Positions 2,079-8,039 of a stretch of 20,233 nt of DNA are shown piece after piece. The translations under genes were made by a program, and so were the position numbers. The stretch is from Thermoproteota archaeon (GTDB taxonomy: Archaea > Korarchaeota > JAOZGF01 > JAOZFZ01), in the NCBI GenBank assembly GCA_027492035.1, contig JAOZFT010000005.1, forward strand, positions 1-20,233, given 5' to 3'. A model generated the notes under the pieces. The model was not told the DNA's origin and did not search any database. It saw nothing but the letters and a program-made list of their open reading frames with translations. How positions within the stretch are numbered: the first letter of the stretch is position 1; each line of letters starts with the position of its first letter.

Positions 2079-3407
2079 TTACTTTACCTTCATTACATGA
2101 TACGCCTTAAACATCATTGGAAGGAAGTCACCCGGCCCTACTTCATAAACATCAACCCCTAAACTCTTCAATTTTGAAATGTTCCTTTTTCTTCTCTCCC
2201 TTTCTTCTTCTATTACATGTAAAGTTGACACGACGCAGAAATTATCCACGTCAGGAAAAACTTGGCCTGGTTTTTTAAAAAGGTAAGTGGAGGGTGACAC
2301 CACAACCGGGTTGTAACCCATTGAAACAGCTTTCTTTAAAGCTTCATAAACCTTTTTTTCAGCGAAATCTTCTAAGTCGGAAATTAATAAAACCTTTGCA
2401 GGGGTTTTAATTTTTTTACCCAGAAACTCAATAGCTTTCAAGAAATCAGGTTTACCGAAGCATTGAAGCAAAAAGGAAGTCTTCAAAATCGCGTAGAAAT
2501 GATTTAGAGTTGAACCAGGTTTAATATATGTTGATGTTTCCCTTGGCAAAAGAACACCGGAAACCGTAGGTATAATTATTCCTATTAAGTCACCGTTCCG
2601 AATGGCCTGACTCGCCAGAAACAAAACAGCCTTTTTCAAATAGTTTAGCTTTTCTCCAGCCATACTTTCACCTGTATCAATTATAATTACTAGCACTCTC
2701 CCAGTTCTCGCCTCGAATTCTTTTATGATAGGTTTGCCTAACCTTGCAGTCGCTTTCCAGTCAATGAACCTCAAGTCATCCCCAGGCTGGAACTCCCTAC
2801 TTGAGTAATAATCTGTACTTAAACCCTTCGATTTCAATGTGTAAGGCCCAATCCAAAAGTAACGTTTTTCTCTTTCTCCAACAAATACTTTTTTCAATTC
2901 AGAAACCCTTGGAAGCACAGTCACAAAACTAAAATTCTTTATTTCCCTCGAAAATCTAAAAAAACCAAGTTTATCTTGGAAAGAGAAATAAATAGGACCT
3001 ATAGTGAATGTCCCCTCCCTTCTCCCTTTCAAAACATATTCAGCCTTCACTTCACCTAAATCATTAGTTTCAACCTTAACTGGCAGTTTACCTTCCACAA
3101 GTGTTAAGGAATCACTTGGGAATTCATCGTTCAAAAAAAACTTTTTTAATAATTTATTTTTGCAATTAGACACTTCCAGTTTTACTGTCAGGAAGCCCCC
3201 CTCCACAATAAATCTCTCACTTAAAACCCTTTCAACTTTAATATTGCTTGAAAACATTATTTGTTCCAAAGAGAAAAGTAAGGAGAGAAAAGAAATAAAG
3301 AGAGGAACCGTAGACACAAGTATTAATAGAGGAAGCTGAAAAACAGCACCTAAAACCATTAATGAGAAACTGCCTACGTAAACAGAAATTACCCTTTTAG
3401 TGAACAA
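2079..3407 (-). CDS. DUF58 domain protein (von Willebrand A-like), MoxR partner
   Basis: About 442 residues. Two membrane helices lie near residues 8-45, followed by a beta-rich region and the DUF58 hallmark at about 204-222 (REFQPGDDLRFIDWKATAR). A vWA-like fold follows, with the MIDAS position reading DTGES at about 244-248. Canonical MIDAS is DxSxS, so the first serine is a glycine here. DUF58 proteins are membrane-associated partners of MoxR AAA+ ATPases. TTG 3407 is chosen as start: GAGGTG inside the last codons of moxR sits seven bases upstream, and the start falls one base after the moxR stop. The TTG at 3422 would precede that ribosome-binding site. The tight junction indicates co-translation with MoxR. 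Family assignment is firm; the molecular role is known only in general terms. Confidence 0.9.
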   Translation of the reverse strand: MFTKRVISVYVGSFSLMVLGAVFQLPLLILVSTVPLFISFLSLLFSLEQIMFSSNIKVERVLSERFIVEGGFLTVKLEVSNCKNKLLKKFFLNDEFPSDSLTLVEGKLPVKVETNDLGEVKAEYVLKGRREGTFTIGPIYFSFQDKLGFFRFSREIKNFSFVTVLPRVSELKKVFVGEREKRYFWIGPYTLKSKGLSTDYYSSREFQPGDDLRFIDWKATARLGKPIIKEFEARTGRVLVIIIDTGESMAGEKLNYLKKAVLFLASQAIRNGDLIGIIIPTVSGVLLPRETSTYIKPGSTLNHFYAILKTSFLLQCFGKPDFLKAIEFLGKKIKTPAKVLLISDLEDFAEKKVYEALKKAVSMGYNPVVVSPSTYLFKKPGQVFPDVDNFCVVSTLHVIEEERERRKRNISKLKSLGVDVYEVGPGDFLPMMFKAYHVMKVK

Positions 3408-3408
3408 G

Positions 3409-4881
3409 TTAAGGCACCTCAACTTCCCTTAAAACAGAGGAAATGATACTTTCAACAGTTACCCCTTCAAGTTCAGCTTCTGGTTTAAGCATGATCCTAT
3501 GTCTCAAAACAGGATTTGCAAGATACTTTACGTCGTCAGGTACCACGTAACTTCTACCGTTAAGCAGAGCTCTGCATTTACTCCCTTTAACAAAGGAAAT
3601 AGATGCTCTTGGACTTGGGCCGAGAAGCACTAATTCATGCCTCCTTGTTTCATGCACAATATCACTTATGTAATTAATCACTTTGTCATCAACAAAAATG
3701 TTTTCTTTCACCGTGTCCTGAAGAATTTTTAGAATTCTAGGTGACCCGATTGAATACATGTTTTTTATTGCTTCAAATCCCTTACCCTTCATTATATCTC
3801 TCTCCTCTTTTTTAGAGGGGTAATTAACTTTTATTTTAAACATAAACCTATCTATTTGGGCTTCAGGTAAATTATAAACGCCTTCCATTTCTAACGGGTT
3901 CTGAGTTGCAACCACAAAGAAAGGGTTTGGGAGAGGGAAAGTTTTTCCTTCAACAGTCACTTGTTTCTCTTGCATGGCTTCAAGTAAGGCGGATTGAGTG
4001 TTGTGAGTCAAGACGCCTCCATTCCATCCACAAACATAGCTTTCAGCACCATCCTCCATTGATAAATCAAAAAGCGCTTTCAGCTTCCCTTCCCCCTTAA
4101 CTTTAATTTTCTCGACATGCACTAGGTTTAAAGGGTGATTTTTGCTTTTTAAGGGCTGCATTACTGCTGAAACAATGTCTCCAACCCTTAAAGAGAATGC
4201 TTCTTTCCATTTAAACCTTCCCAGTTCATAAACGTGAAAAAAGTGACGAGGTGAACATTTAACCACTTGACCTGCACTCAGTTCAACTTCATAAACAGGT
4301 TTAAGGGTTAACTGCCTATAAAGATACTTAATTTTCCTTTTCACAACAAAGCCTCTTTGGTTAAGGGAATAGCTTTTAAGGTTTCTGCACACTTTAACAA
4401 ACTCTCCAGCCCCTACTCTTTTTTCAGTTGCTTTACAATTTTCATAAATTTTCCTTATTTCAACCTGCCCAGTGGATAAGTGTATAGGTGTTTCACCATC
4501 TAAACATTTAGGTGGGGCTCTGTTTATTTCATCCGCCAATATTATGTTAGAAAAAATAGGTCCCTGCATGAATTTGAATTCACCTTCCTTACTTGAATAA
4601 ATAAATGACCCTATTATGTCTGAAGGAAGCATGTCGCTTGTGAACTGAATCCTTTTGAAGCTACAGCCTAAAACTTTACTGAACCCTCTAGCTATAAGTG
4701 TTTTACCTAGACCAGGAACTCCTTCCAGTAATATGTGCCCCTCAGCTAAAATAGCTATCAATATTTTTTCAAGAAGCTCCCTCTTACCTACAACAACTTT
4801 TTTAAGTTCAAACAAAATTTCCTCTTTCAATTTCGGCGCTAAATCAAAAACAAATTTTTCTTTGGTTTTGTAATCTGCCAT
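3409..4881 (-). CDS. moxR: MoxR-family AAA+ ATPase interrupted by a mini-intein
   Basis: 490 residues as translated, 321 after removal of the intein, the usual size for MoxR. Walker A is GVPGLGKT (54-61) and Walker B is IILADE (113-118). The next conserved block, normally DEINRAPPKTQSALLEAMQE, is split after Lys125 by 169 intein residues and resumes at Thr295. Sensor 1 (VVATQNP, 323-329) and the downstream LPEAQIDRF block are present, followed by the C-terminal lid (GPSPRAS). MoxR ATPases act as chaperone-like remodelers with DUF58/vWA partners. ATG 4881 is preceded by AGGGGC overlapping the upstream stop; the upstream gene ends two bases away. Splicing is needed for a working enzyme, because the insertion separates Walker B from the following helix. 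The reading frame and all extein motifs are intact. Confidence 0.95.
   Translation of the reverse strand: MADYKTKEKFVFDLAPKLKEEILFELKKVVVGKRELLEKILIAILAEGHILLEGVPGLGKTLIARGFSKVLGCSFKRIQFTSDMLPSDIIGSFIYSSKEGEFKFMQGPIFSNIILADEINRAPPKCLDGETPIHLSTGQVEIRKIYENCKATEKRVGAGEFVKVCRNLKSYSLNQRGFVVKRKIKYLYRQLTLKPVYEVELSAGQVVKCSPRHFFHVYELGRFKWKEAFSLRVGDIVSAVMQPLKSKNHPLNLVHVEKIKVKGEGKLKALFDLSMEDGAESYVCGWNGGVLTHNTQSALLEAMQEKQVTVEGKTFPLPNPFFVVATQNPLEMEGVYNLPEAQIDRFMFKIKVNYPSKKEERDIMKGKGFEAIKNMYSIGSPRILKILQDTVKENIFVDDKVINYISDIVHETRRHELVLLGPSPRASISFVKGSKCRALLNGRSYVVPDDVKYLANPVLRHRIMLKPEAELEGVTVESIISSVLREVEVP
4000..4506 (-). other. Mini-intein (Hint domain) within MoxR
   Basis: 169 residues from Cys126 to Asn294 of the precursor. 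Block A begins CLDGETPIHLSTG; block B is VVKCSPRHFFHVYE, with SPRH in place of the usual TxxH; block F is around LFDLSMEDGAESY; block G is NGGVLTHN, ending in the penultimate His and terminal Asn. The +1 extein residue is Thr295. Removing the segment restores the uninterrupted RAPPK-TQSALLEAMQE motif of MoxR. Only about 45 residues separate blocks B and F, and no LAGLIDADG motif is seen, so there is no homing endonuclease. It is expected to splice by the class 1 route (Cys1, Asn, Thr+1). The His usually seen in block F is not obvious. The intein sits at a highly conserved nucleotide-binding site, as inteins typically do. Confidence 0.95.
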
Positions 4882-4883
4882 TT

Positions 4884-6203
4884 TTAAGCCCCTATCTTTT
4901 CTAAAACCTCCATTAAACTGTCACACATATTTATGAAATCTTTAAAGCCCACAACCTTCTTACTCCCCTTCTTAACCATTAAACATGACTCTAACAGTTT
5001 TTTTAATTCCTCACTTTTAACGCTTGGATACTTTTCCACAATCTCTTCATAAATTAATTTAGGAACAGAAATTTTTGGGTTAACTCCTACCCTTTCAAGA
5101 AACCACTCAAAAAAGGATGTTAAATACTTGTTGTAATCATTTTCAGAAGATTTAAATTCCGAAACTAATTCAGAACCCTTCCCTTCTCCACCTCCTCCTT
5201 TCACGCTTAAAAAGTTTAGTGGAGATTTTGAAAGATGGGAACCTACTGATTTAACAGTTAAGAGAATAAGAAATGAAAAAAAAACAATTGAAAAAAGAAA
5301 TGAAACTGAAAACCTGAAAATTAAAGGTTGTTGCGACCATTCAATCAGAAAAGTTAGGAAATAAATTGAAAGAGGCTTAAACAACCAAACCTTGGATTCA
5401 CAAACGTAAACAGTTACTTCCTTTTCAGGAGCTAAGTAGTTTAACATGTAATTAGCTGCTGCTAAGTTACTTCCTTTAAATAACATATCGTTAATGAAAA
5501 TATCGGGGTCGCTTACAATCACTGCTTTCCCTTCACCGTAAGACGTAAAAACTACTACTGGAAAGGGACCCCGGGGTTCATCTTCATCTCTTTCTAGGTT
5601 ATAGTTTACATCAAGCCAACTTGACCCTGAACTCTCAGCTTGAATTGACAAATTAACTTTTAACCACGTCCCATTTAACTTCACATAATATTTCCCGTTT
5701 TTAAGTTTGCCTTCAAAAACAAGTGCACTTGGGTGATTCAAAACCAAAGTGAAAACCTTTTTAAACCCTTTTTTAACTGTTAGGTTCACCAATGGAAAAA
5801 CAGGTTGTTTAGAGTAAAGAGAAGGTTCAAGAAGTAAATTTCTCCTAAACTCAACCCCAAAAACCCTTGAAAGGGAGTTCCCTTCCCTGAAATCATCAGC
5901 TAAAAGTAAACCGCCTCCATTATAAACAAATTCTTGAACAGCATCAACTTCCAAGTCACTTAATTTTTCAGCTGGACTTAAAAAAATTAATAATTTACCG
6001 TGTGGATTCGTTAAGTTAAGGGTTAAGGGAGAGTAGATAGTTTCTAACCTCCACCCCTTACCTTTAATGAATTCAGCAAAATCTGAACAACCGTCCCATT
6101 TCTTATTGAAAACTGAAAAAGCTGGTAAAGGATTGTAAAATAACAGGACTAGGAAAGAGAAAAAAAGGAGATAGAGTGCAGTATAAGAAAAAAGTTTGTT
6201 CAA
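4884..6203 (-). CDS. DUF4350-type membrane protein with Rossmann-like exported domain
   Basis: 439 residues. An N-terminal hydrophobic helix (about 7-28) is followed by an extracytoplasmic domain of about 240 residues with the DUF4350-like pattern: KLLIFLSPAEKLSDLE (70-85), then VYNGGGLLLADD (93-104) and AVIVSDPDIF (227-236). A second membrane helix (about 298-317) leads to a cytosolic helical tail of about 120 residues. DUF4350 proteins sit next to MoxR, DUF58 and DUF4129/transglutaminase genes in many prokaryotes, as here. The fold resembles a class I amidotransferase-like domain without its catalytic residues. The start is TTG 6203, preceded by AAGGTG, and the upstream gene ends 12 bp away. 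No enzyme activity can be assigned. Confidence 0.8.
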   Translation of the reverse strand: MNKLFSYTALYLLFFSFLVLLFYNPLPAFSVFNKKWDGCSDFAEFIKGKGWRLETIYSPLTLNLTNPHGKLLIFLSPAEKLSDLEVDAVQEFVYNGGGLLLADDFREGNSLSRVFGVEFRRNLLLEPSLYSKQPVFPLVNLTVKKGFKKVFTLVLNHPSALVFEGKLKNGKYYVKLNGTWLKVNLSIQAESSGSSWLDVNYNLERDEDEPRGPFPVVVFTSYGEGKAVIVSDPDIFINDMLFKGSNLAAANYMLNYLAPEKEVTVYVCESKVWLFKPLSIYFLTFLIEWSQQPLIFRFSVSFLFSIVFFSFLILLTVKSVGSHLSKSPLNFLSVKGGGGEGKGSELVSEFKSSENDYNKYLTSFFEWFLERVGVNPKISVPKLIYEEIVEKYPSVKSEELKKLLESCLMVKKGSKKVVGFKDFINMCDSLMEVLEKIGA

Positions 6204-6215
6204 ATCCTTAACACC

Positions 6216-8039
6216 TTATCCTAAACTTTTAAATTCCATTCCCTTTTCATTCCCCCTTCCCAACTTGTTTATGAAAAAGTCAATAATCAATGAAAAAACA
6301 AATATTGTTTTTAGATATTCAGCTGAAGTGATTTCTTCCCTTCCATACTTCGCCTTCTCTACAACTCTTGTGAAAAACTGAATATCGCTTTCATTCTTTT
6401 TATACTTATTAAAAACTTTTAGGAAAAATTCCCTAACTGTTTCTCCACGCTTCTTTTCCACCCCGTTTAATTTTGAAGCCATTTCAACTAAAAGGTCTCC
6501 AAGGAAGAGAACTCCTTCCCTGAAATTACTTGAATCATAAAAAGCAGCTACTCTTTCGACAATTTTCTCAAGGTCACTAATCAGTTTATCTTCCTCTTTT
6601 TCTTTACTTTCCACAGCTCCACCAACATTAAGTTTTTCTTCCTCTTCTTCCCTTTTTCTGCGTAAAGAGAAAGACACAGCTAAAACTGCAATTAAAACAG
6701 CTGAAAATGGAAATACTAAGAAGTATATGTTTCCTGCCAAACTTTGAATACTTGAAGTAAACCTTGTTTTGTTTTGAAATACGCTTGCGTTTACGCTAAC
6801 ATTAAATTTGTTAAATTTAATTTTTTCAGGATTAGTTTTGTTCAGAGACGCATTCTCATTACCAACTAATCTGTTCTCTTTCTCAGCTGACAAGTTAACA
6901 GCTGACAAGTTAACATTTGAAGCTGTTTTGTTACTAATCACAGATTTCCAACTTTTCTTTATTTGTTTTTTATGTACTACTTTAATTTTGTTCAGGGGTA
7001 AAACATCAATTGTTTCCAATTTAGATGGTGAAGGATCGACTGGGCACCAACCGACTCCTGGGAAGAAAACCTCTGCCCAACAATACTCATCGCCACTATG
7101 AACCCAGTATCCGTTGCCTGAAATATTAACCGGTTTAAAGCCAACAACCAGCCTGGCAGGTATGCCTATTTCCCTTGAAAGAAGCGTAAAAACTGTTGAG
7201 AAAAGAAAACTGTCACCTTTACCTTTCTTGAAGAAAAGAGAAATTGCTTCGTAAGTGGAAACGTTCCCAAAATCCACTTCAGAAACATACTTAAAACCTT
7301 TAAGGAAATCAATTAAAACCTTAACCTGTCCAGCCATGGTTAAGCTGCTGTTTTTAACTTTCTCAGCCGCCTCAACTAATTCAGGAGGTAACTTTGAAGG
7401 AAGAGAAGTAAACCTAGATTTCACTTCACTAGGTACATCTGAAACATCAGCTAAGGAAATTTTTGAGAGGTTATAGATTCTTTCTTGATAAGAAATGTTA
7501 TAGAGGAGGTAAGTTCCTGAAACATTTCCAGAAACCAAGACAGAACCAGTGTCTGTTAAGTAACTTTTCACTTCCACATTTGACACAGTTAACCCTTTAA
7601 CCGTTTCAATCATTGAAGGAACAGGAAGGATTCCTACGTACTTCCGTAAGCTTCCTTTATTAATTATAACTGTGAAAGAAGTAAGACTTGAAACATTAAC
7701 CTTGAGAGGGTATTCTTTACATTTATAACTGAACTGAGCCCATCCTTTACCGTCGAAAAAATCAAAAGAATCAACACGCCAAAGAACTTCTTTACTTAGG
7801 CCTGAAACATAAAACAGAGGCAAATTAGGTTTTATTTTCGATAAAGGGGTAAGTGGAAAGTAACCCCATTTAAAAGATAAGTTCCCAGTCACCCAAGAGA
7901 TTAAAAGTTCTTTACCCGGTGGAAGAGAAATTGCAGGGGCTAATTCATAATTTATGTGTTGAGGAGGCTGACCATAAGCAACTGACCATGTAGGGAAGAC
8001 AAAAAAAAGCATTAAAACTAAAATAAATTTTTTATCCAT
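6216..8039 (-). CDS. Transglutaminase-like membrane protein with DUF4129 tail, catalytic residues apparently lost
   Basis: 607 residues: signal-like helix (4-22), a beta-rich exported region, a transglutaminase-like core (about 235-340), a low-complexity N- and K-rich linker (about 350-430), a membrane helix (about 437-459) and a cytosolic DUF4129-like helical domain ending VEKAKYGREEITSAEYL. The core keeps the fold signature LLSREIGIPARLVVGF and GWCPVDPS. However, the position of the nucleophile Cys reads Ser277 (GKGDSFLFS) and the position of the catalytic His two residues before Trp reads Tyr319 (DEYCWAEV); Asp335 remains. The protein is therefore probably not a transglutaminase or protease but a binding or scaffold module. 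ATG 8039 follows AAGGTGAG by seven bases, overlapping the upstream stop. Such proteins belong to MoxR/DUF58 gene sets. Confidence 0.88.
   Translation of the reverse strand: MDKKFILVLMLFFVFPTWSVAYGQPPQHINYELAPAISLPPGKELLISWVTGNLSFKWGYFPLTPLSKIKPNLPLFYVSGLSKEVLWRVDSFDFFDGKGWAQFSYKCKEYPLKVNVSSLTSFTVIINKGSLRKYVGILPVPSMIETVKGLTVSNVEVKSYLTDTGSVLVSGNVSGTYLLYNISYQERIYNLSKISLADVSDVPSEVKSRFTSLPSKLPPELVEAAEKVKNSSLTMAGQVKVLIDFLKGFKYVSEVDFGNVSTYEAISLFFKKGKGDSFLFSTVFTLLSREIGIPARLVVGFKPVNISGNGYWVHSGDEYCWAEVFFPGVGWCPVDPSPSKLETIDVLPLNKIKVVHKKQIKKSWKSVISNKTASNVNLSAVNLSAEKENRLVGNENASLNKTNPEKIKFNKFNVSVNASVFQNKTRFTSSIQSLAGNIYFLVFPFSAVLIAVLAVSFSLRRKREEEEEKLNVGGAVESKEKEEDKLISDLEKIVERVAAFYDSSNFREGVLFLGDLLVEMASKLNGVEKKRGETVREFFLKVFNKYKKNESDIQFFTRVVEKAKYGREEITSAEYLKTIFVFSLIIDFFINKLGRGNEKGMEFKSLG
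6885..6914 (-). repeat. Tandem 15-bp duplication in the linker of the transglutaminase-like gene
   Basis: Two perfect copies of AGCTGACAAGTTAAC, read on the plus strand, lie head to tail. On the coding strand they give VNLSA twice in the linker between the transglutaminase-like core and the membrane helix. The unit is a multiple of three, so the frame is kept; each copy adds an N-x-S sequon. It looks like a recent slippage duplication. Confidence 0.85.

Follow-up and report, generated by a model that had tools for sequence, protein, structure and literature searches.

A 20,233-nucleotide stretch of archaeal DNA (hereafter the window) encodes a MoxR protein that carries a 169-residue insert, which raises the question of whether this insert is an intein capable of splicing, from what it derives and why it has persisted in its host gene. 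The open reading frame at 3409-4881 on the minus strand encodes a precursor of 490 amino acids including the insert, with residues 1-125 and 295-490 constituting a MoxR-type AAA+ ATPase. The N-extein (residues 1-125; 4507..4881, minus strand; Pfam AAA_3, e-value: 1.5e-58) spans the Walker A (GVPGLGKT) to Walker B (LADEINRAPPK) motifs and shares 87.6% amino acid identity with its counterpart in a second genus of the same family (genome G001), while the C-extein (3409..3999, minus strand; AAA_lid_2, e-value: 2.6e-21) comprises Thr+1, the sensor region, the AAA lid and the stop codon, and shares 82% identity.

The gene is flanked on the same strand by a downstream DUF58/vWA gene (2079..3422; PF01882, e-value: 1.7e-17), which overlaps the MoxR stop codon, an upstream DUF4350 gene (4884..6203; PF14258, e-value: 6.6e-18) and a transglutaminase-like/DUF4129 gene (6216..8039; PF01841, e-value: 3.4e-17). 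DUF58/vWA genes are the customary partners of moxR, and the combination of the AAA_3 and AAA_lid_2 domains with an adjoining DUF58 gene identifies the host as a MoxR AAA+ ATPase within the standard, envelope-linked MoxR-DUF58-DUF4350-transglutaminase layout. No second full MoxR was found in the source genome (G000), where the remaining matches are weak; two of these, on contigs C8 and C9, are divergent AAA proteins with a vWA-like domain association.

Splicing motifs, empty site and predicted fold

The insert corresponds to precursor residues 126-294, located between K125 and T295 (4000..4506, minus strand), with codon-exact coordinates. Its first codon (TGT; 4504..4506, minus strand) encodes Cys1, the predicted N-terminal splice nucleophile, which is kept in the MoxR inteins of G001 and of two nanoarchaeal genomes, G394 and G469. 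Block B reads SPRH (4243..4254, minus strand); when compared to the class 1 expectation of Thr at B:7 and His at B:10, the His (H88) is present, with Ser (S85) in place of Thr, and both residues are likewise kept in G001, G394 and G469. In block F (FDLSMEDGAESYVC; 4030..4071, minus strand), alignment places Asp147 at F:4 and Glu155 where a His (F:13) is usual, and these two residues as well as Cys159 are kept in G001. Block G (VLTHN; 4000..4014, minus strand) ends in the penultimate His168 and Asn169 (codon AAC at 4002-4000, minus strand), an HN end common to all aligned inteins, and is followed by Thr+1, the native host residue. All the nucleophiles of the class 1 chemistry, in which a Cys1 acyl shift, transfer to the +1 residue, Asn cyclisation and an O-N shift follow one another (PMC4031507), are thus present. 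A class 3 mechanism, with no N-terminal nucleophile and a Cys at F:4, was ruled out by the presence of Cys1 and of Asp at F:4.

The insert scores 41.3 bits with the TIGR01445 intein_Nterm profile (NCBIfam; cut-off: 24.5 bits; e-value: 2.3e-10), while the Pfam Intein_splicing match (e-value: 4.6e-7) falls slightly below the family cut-off. No LAGLIDADG domain was found in the insert by Pfam search, and it lacks an insertion of approximately 360 amino acids found in the inteins that G394 and G469 have at this site, in keeping with a mini-intein that is class 1 by sequence. The preliminary description had proposed an endonuclease-free mini-intein with exactly these ends, an SPRH variant of block B and no block F His, and had called for a profile search for intein domains; each of these features is present in the sequence, and the profile evidence agrees for TIGR01445.

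Joining residues 125 and 295 yields a MoxR protein of 321 amino acids with the junction DEINRAPPK-TQSALLE, which after excision reads RAPPK-TQSALLEAMQEK. The claim that exact removal recreates this conserved block, for which an alignment with empty alleles had been proposed, was borne out by 21 MoxR proteins from other archaea, in which the matching block is found with the site empty and the +1 residue is nearly always Thr, with Val or Ala in some. Excision would therefore recreate a conserved host protein in frame. Among the relatives with an empty site are members of the same phylum, including G028, G023 and G024.

An AlphaFold model of the insert, based on a seven-row alignment, has a mean pLDDT of 88.9. 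Comparison by Foldseek and VIA-align places this model among the archaeal inteins TvoVMA (4o1s), PhoCDC21-1 (6rpq), Pab PolII (2lcj) and its Pho counterpart, and Pho RadA (4e2t), with VIA Z-scores of up to 24.1 and the best matches scoring about 22-24 over about 160 residues. As in these solved structures, a HINT fold is predicted over the full length of the insert (Z about 19-23; 22-26% identity), but the host proteins and insertion sites of 4o1s, 6rpq, 2lcj and 4e2t differ from the MoxR site. In a model of the whole precursor, parts of the intein were predicted with low confidence, and this model was not relied on to place domains. The insert is a real intein and is probably active.

Inteins at the same MoxR site in distant archaea

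A degenerate scan for the N-terminal junction (DEINRAxxxC) across a genome collection of 84,980 species returned 41 stretches, with inteins only in those of G001 (locus L055) and a nanoarchaeal metagenome-assembled genome (locus L058); the remaining matches are MoxR proteins with a native Cys and no intein, or unrelated chance matches, and the pattern misses MoxR proteins with DEINRS, such as that of G469. The C-terminal junction was found only in G000 and G001 among 394 archaeal genomes; in the nanoarchaeal phylum (194 genomes) it was found in G394 and G469. This insertion point, after Lys125 of RAPPK (site a), is hence filled in at least three other genomes (G001, G394 and G469), and is rare but not unique among the genomes compared. 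Viral contigs gave no match to the C-terminal junction, and no relative was found in them when they were searched with the intein alignment for carriage by phages.

The L058 intein belongs to G394 (JAHJRB010000048.1; 'Nanoarchaeota archaeon OS_PC_MetaG.mb.127'). The site-a inteins of G394 and G469, of 533 and 530 amino acids, share with that of the window an identical insertion point, Cys1, an SxxH block B, the HN end and Thr+1, but they differ in carrying a LAGLIDADG endonuclease and the block F His (THSFVAGF), and their splicing domains show only about 29% identity to the window intein. The roughly 0.9-Mb G394 genome (JAHJRB01; L058, L116) has 46 intein splicing-domain matches in some 25 or more reading frames, an unusually high load for its size. 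One MoxR gene of this genome has both site a and a second site, b, filled. The site-b inteins, observed in two distant archaea (L116 of G394 and L087 of G050), occupy the same host protein as the window intein but lie after NPIExxG in the sensor region, begin with Ser1 rather than Cys1 and bear LAGLIDADG motifs. Near the nanoarchaeal MoxR (L116:4129-8724), a 1,532-amino-acid frame contains many imperfect FFHxxLGLFKTxEE repeats.

The source genome itself encodes three further inteins, all endonuclease-free (142-164 amino acids) and all in P-loop NTPases, namely a Hel308-like helicase (in motif VI), a HerA-like ATPase and an SMC protein (directly behind Walker A, GPNGSGK), located on contigs C9 (L113, L115) and C21 (L114). 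Loss of the endonuclease at each of the four sites of this genome, or inheritance of the mini-inteins as such, would explain this. In G028, an ATPase frame on contig C49 (L126) has an endonuclease-size intein directly behind Walker A (GETGSGKS), and a second intein shortly after (VEDS).

The mini-intein probably derives from a site-a homing intein by loss of the endonuclease, because the LAGLIDADG-bearing inteins of G394 and G469 share its junction to the residue and, in the genomes compared, no intein from outside the family is closer to it. Of the many inteins that G394 encodes, the site-a intein matches it best (e-value: 1.9e-9, the next being 4.9e-4), and the site-a intein is likewise the best match in G469. 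When G394 and G469 were searched along with other genomes, nine in all, using a two-row profile, their site-a inteins ranked above all other non-family inteins. A KYLYxQxT segment and the Ser at B:7 (SPRH, SMVH and SNIH) are also common to the three, unlike the other three G000 inteins, which have Thr at B:7. Most forks stayed open in a maximum-likelihood tree built from eight splicing domains, in which no clade of site-a inteins was recovered, and this descent is thus no more than probable. A mini-intein with no recent kinship to the nanoarchaeal inteins may instead have entered the same permissive site; the low identity, the open forks and the HerA intein of G000, which scores not far behind, are compatible with such an independent origin, but the identical junction, the profile ranking and the common sequence features make it unlikely.

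Conservation in a second genus and persistence in MoxR

The genome G001 (Thermoproteota archaeon isolate Flange_M5_B4; JAOZFL01) belongs to the same family but another genus. Its MoxR intein, which is the same by descent, is split over two contig ends, between which residues of about 14-44 are lacking. In the parts seen, the intein shares 69-70% amino acid identity with that of the window, as compared to about 88% for the N-extein and 82% for the C-extein, and C1, C84, S85, H88, D147, E155, C159, T167, H168, N169 and T+1 are all kept, so that every catalytic residue seen is intact. Relatives with disrupted splice junctions had been named as evidence that would speak against an intein; the copy in G001 has intact ends, and since it occurs independently in this second genus an assembly artefact was ruled out. 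Nei-Gojobori dN/dS between the two copies is 0.150 for the intein (95% interval: 0.063-0.272), and the N- and C-exteins have values of 0.062 and 0.089; the corresponding dS values for intein, N-extein and C-extein are 1.29, 1.44 and 1.22. Recent transfer was ruled out, as the dS of the intein equals that of the exteins. The low omega of the intein and its extein-like dS indicate an old intein that was inherited with its host gene and diverged along with it under purifying selection, which would not be expected of a dead insert.

These observations are very likely explained by a self-excising class 1 mini-intein, descended from a homing intein at the same site and persisting vertically in the only MoxR of the cell. 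Under this explanation, an ancestral LAGLIDADG-bearing homing intein at site a would have lost its endonuclease before the split of the two genera. Following translation, Cys1 would undergo an N-S acyl shift and transesterification onto Thr+1, Asn169 would cyclise with the help of His168, and a final O-N shift would link residue 125 to residue 295, giving a normal MoxR of 321 amino acids. The intein would persist because loss of splicing would destroy the sole MoxR and precise deletion is rare. We infer the occurrence of splicing, its constitutive nature and this order of events; the replacement of the block F His by Glu, the split copy in G001 and the open forks of the tree count against this explanation.

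The position of the insertion beside Walker B makes it plausible that the unspliced precursor would be inactive, and the preliminary description had further suggested that splicing may be slowed or made conditional by the SPRH variant and the lack of the usual block F His. This latter suggestion was not supported: the same-site inteins with an endonuclease likewise have Ser at B:7, and assisting positions of block F, F:13 among them, are less conserved (PMC4031507), so that neither feature argues for slow or conditional splicing. The block F His is also absent from two of the three other G000 inteins (Glu-Thr-Phe in Hel308; Asn-Arg-Tyr in HerA). A signal such as redox state, temperature or metal could nevertheless free active MoxR, which would make the intein an on-switch for the MoxR/DUF58/transglutaminase envelope cluster. 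Such a switch would account for an endonuclease-free intein retained under purifying selection since before the two genera split, for the additional cysteines C84 (block B) and C159 (block F) kept in G001 and for the interruption of the only full MoxR directly behind Walker B, and there is precedent in the conditional splicing described for the Pyrococcus horikoshii RadA intein (PMC5790916). However, purifying selection is equally expected if splicing is constitutive and the host gene is needed, as any intein in such a gene is kept where precise deletion is rare, and constraint therefore does not discriminate between the two; furthermore, conservation of C84 and C159 does not extend to the nanoarchaeal inteins. 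It is accordingly improbable that the locus is a conditional switch, and retention is hardly to be attributed to, for example, a redox gate via Cys84/Cys159 timing the activity of MoxR and the envelope-linked cluster. That the insertion has decayed, with MoxR dead or working as a 490-amino-acid protein, could be read from the replaced block F His and the Pfam score slightly under its cut-off, but is highly improbable given that all nucleophiles are intact in two genera despite high synonymous divergence and omega is well below 1 in the intein and both exteins.

AAA+ and P-loop proteins are known to host inteins, and the MoxR intein belongs to a known kind. No paper on MoxR as an intein host was found in the open-access literature searched, although an earlier listing in InBase or subscription papers is possible. 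What the locus adds is that one codon junction is occupied, in distant archaea, by a mini-intein and by inteins with an endonuclease, together with constraint across two genera on an intein that has no endonuclease. It thereby provides a small, testable example of why inteins outlast the loss of their means to spread.
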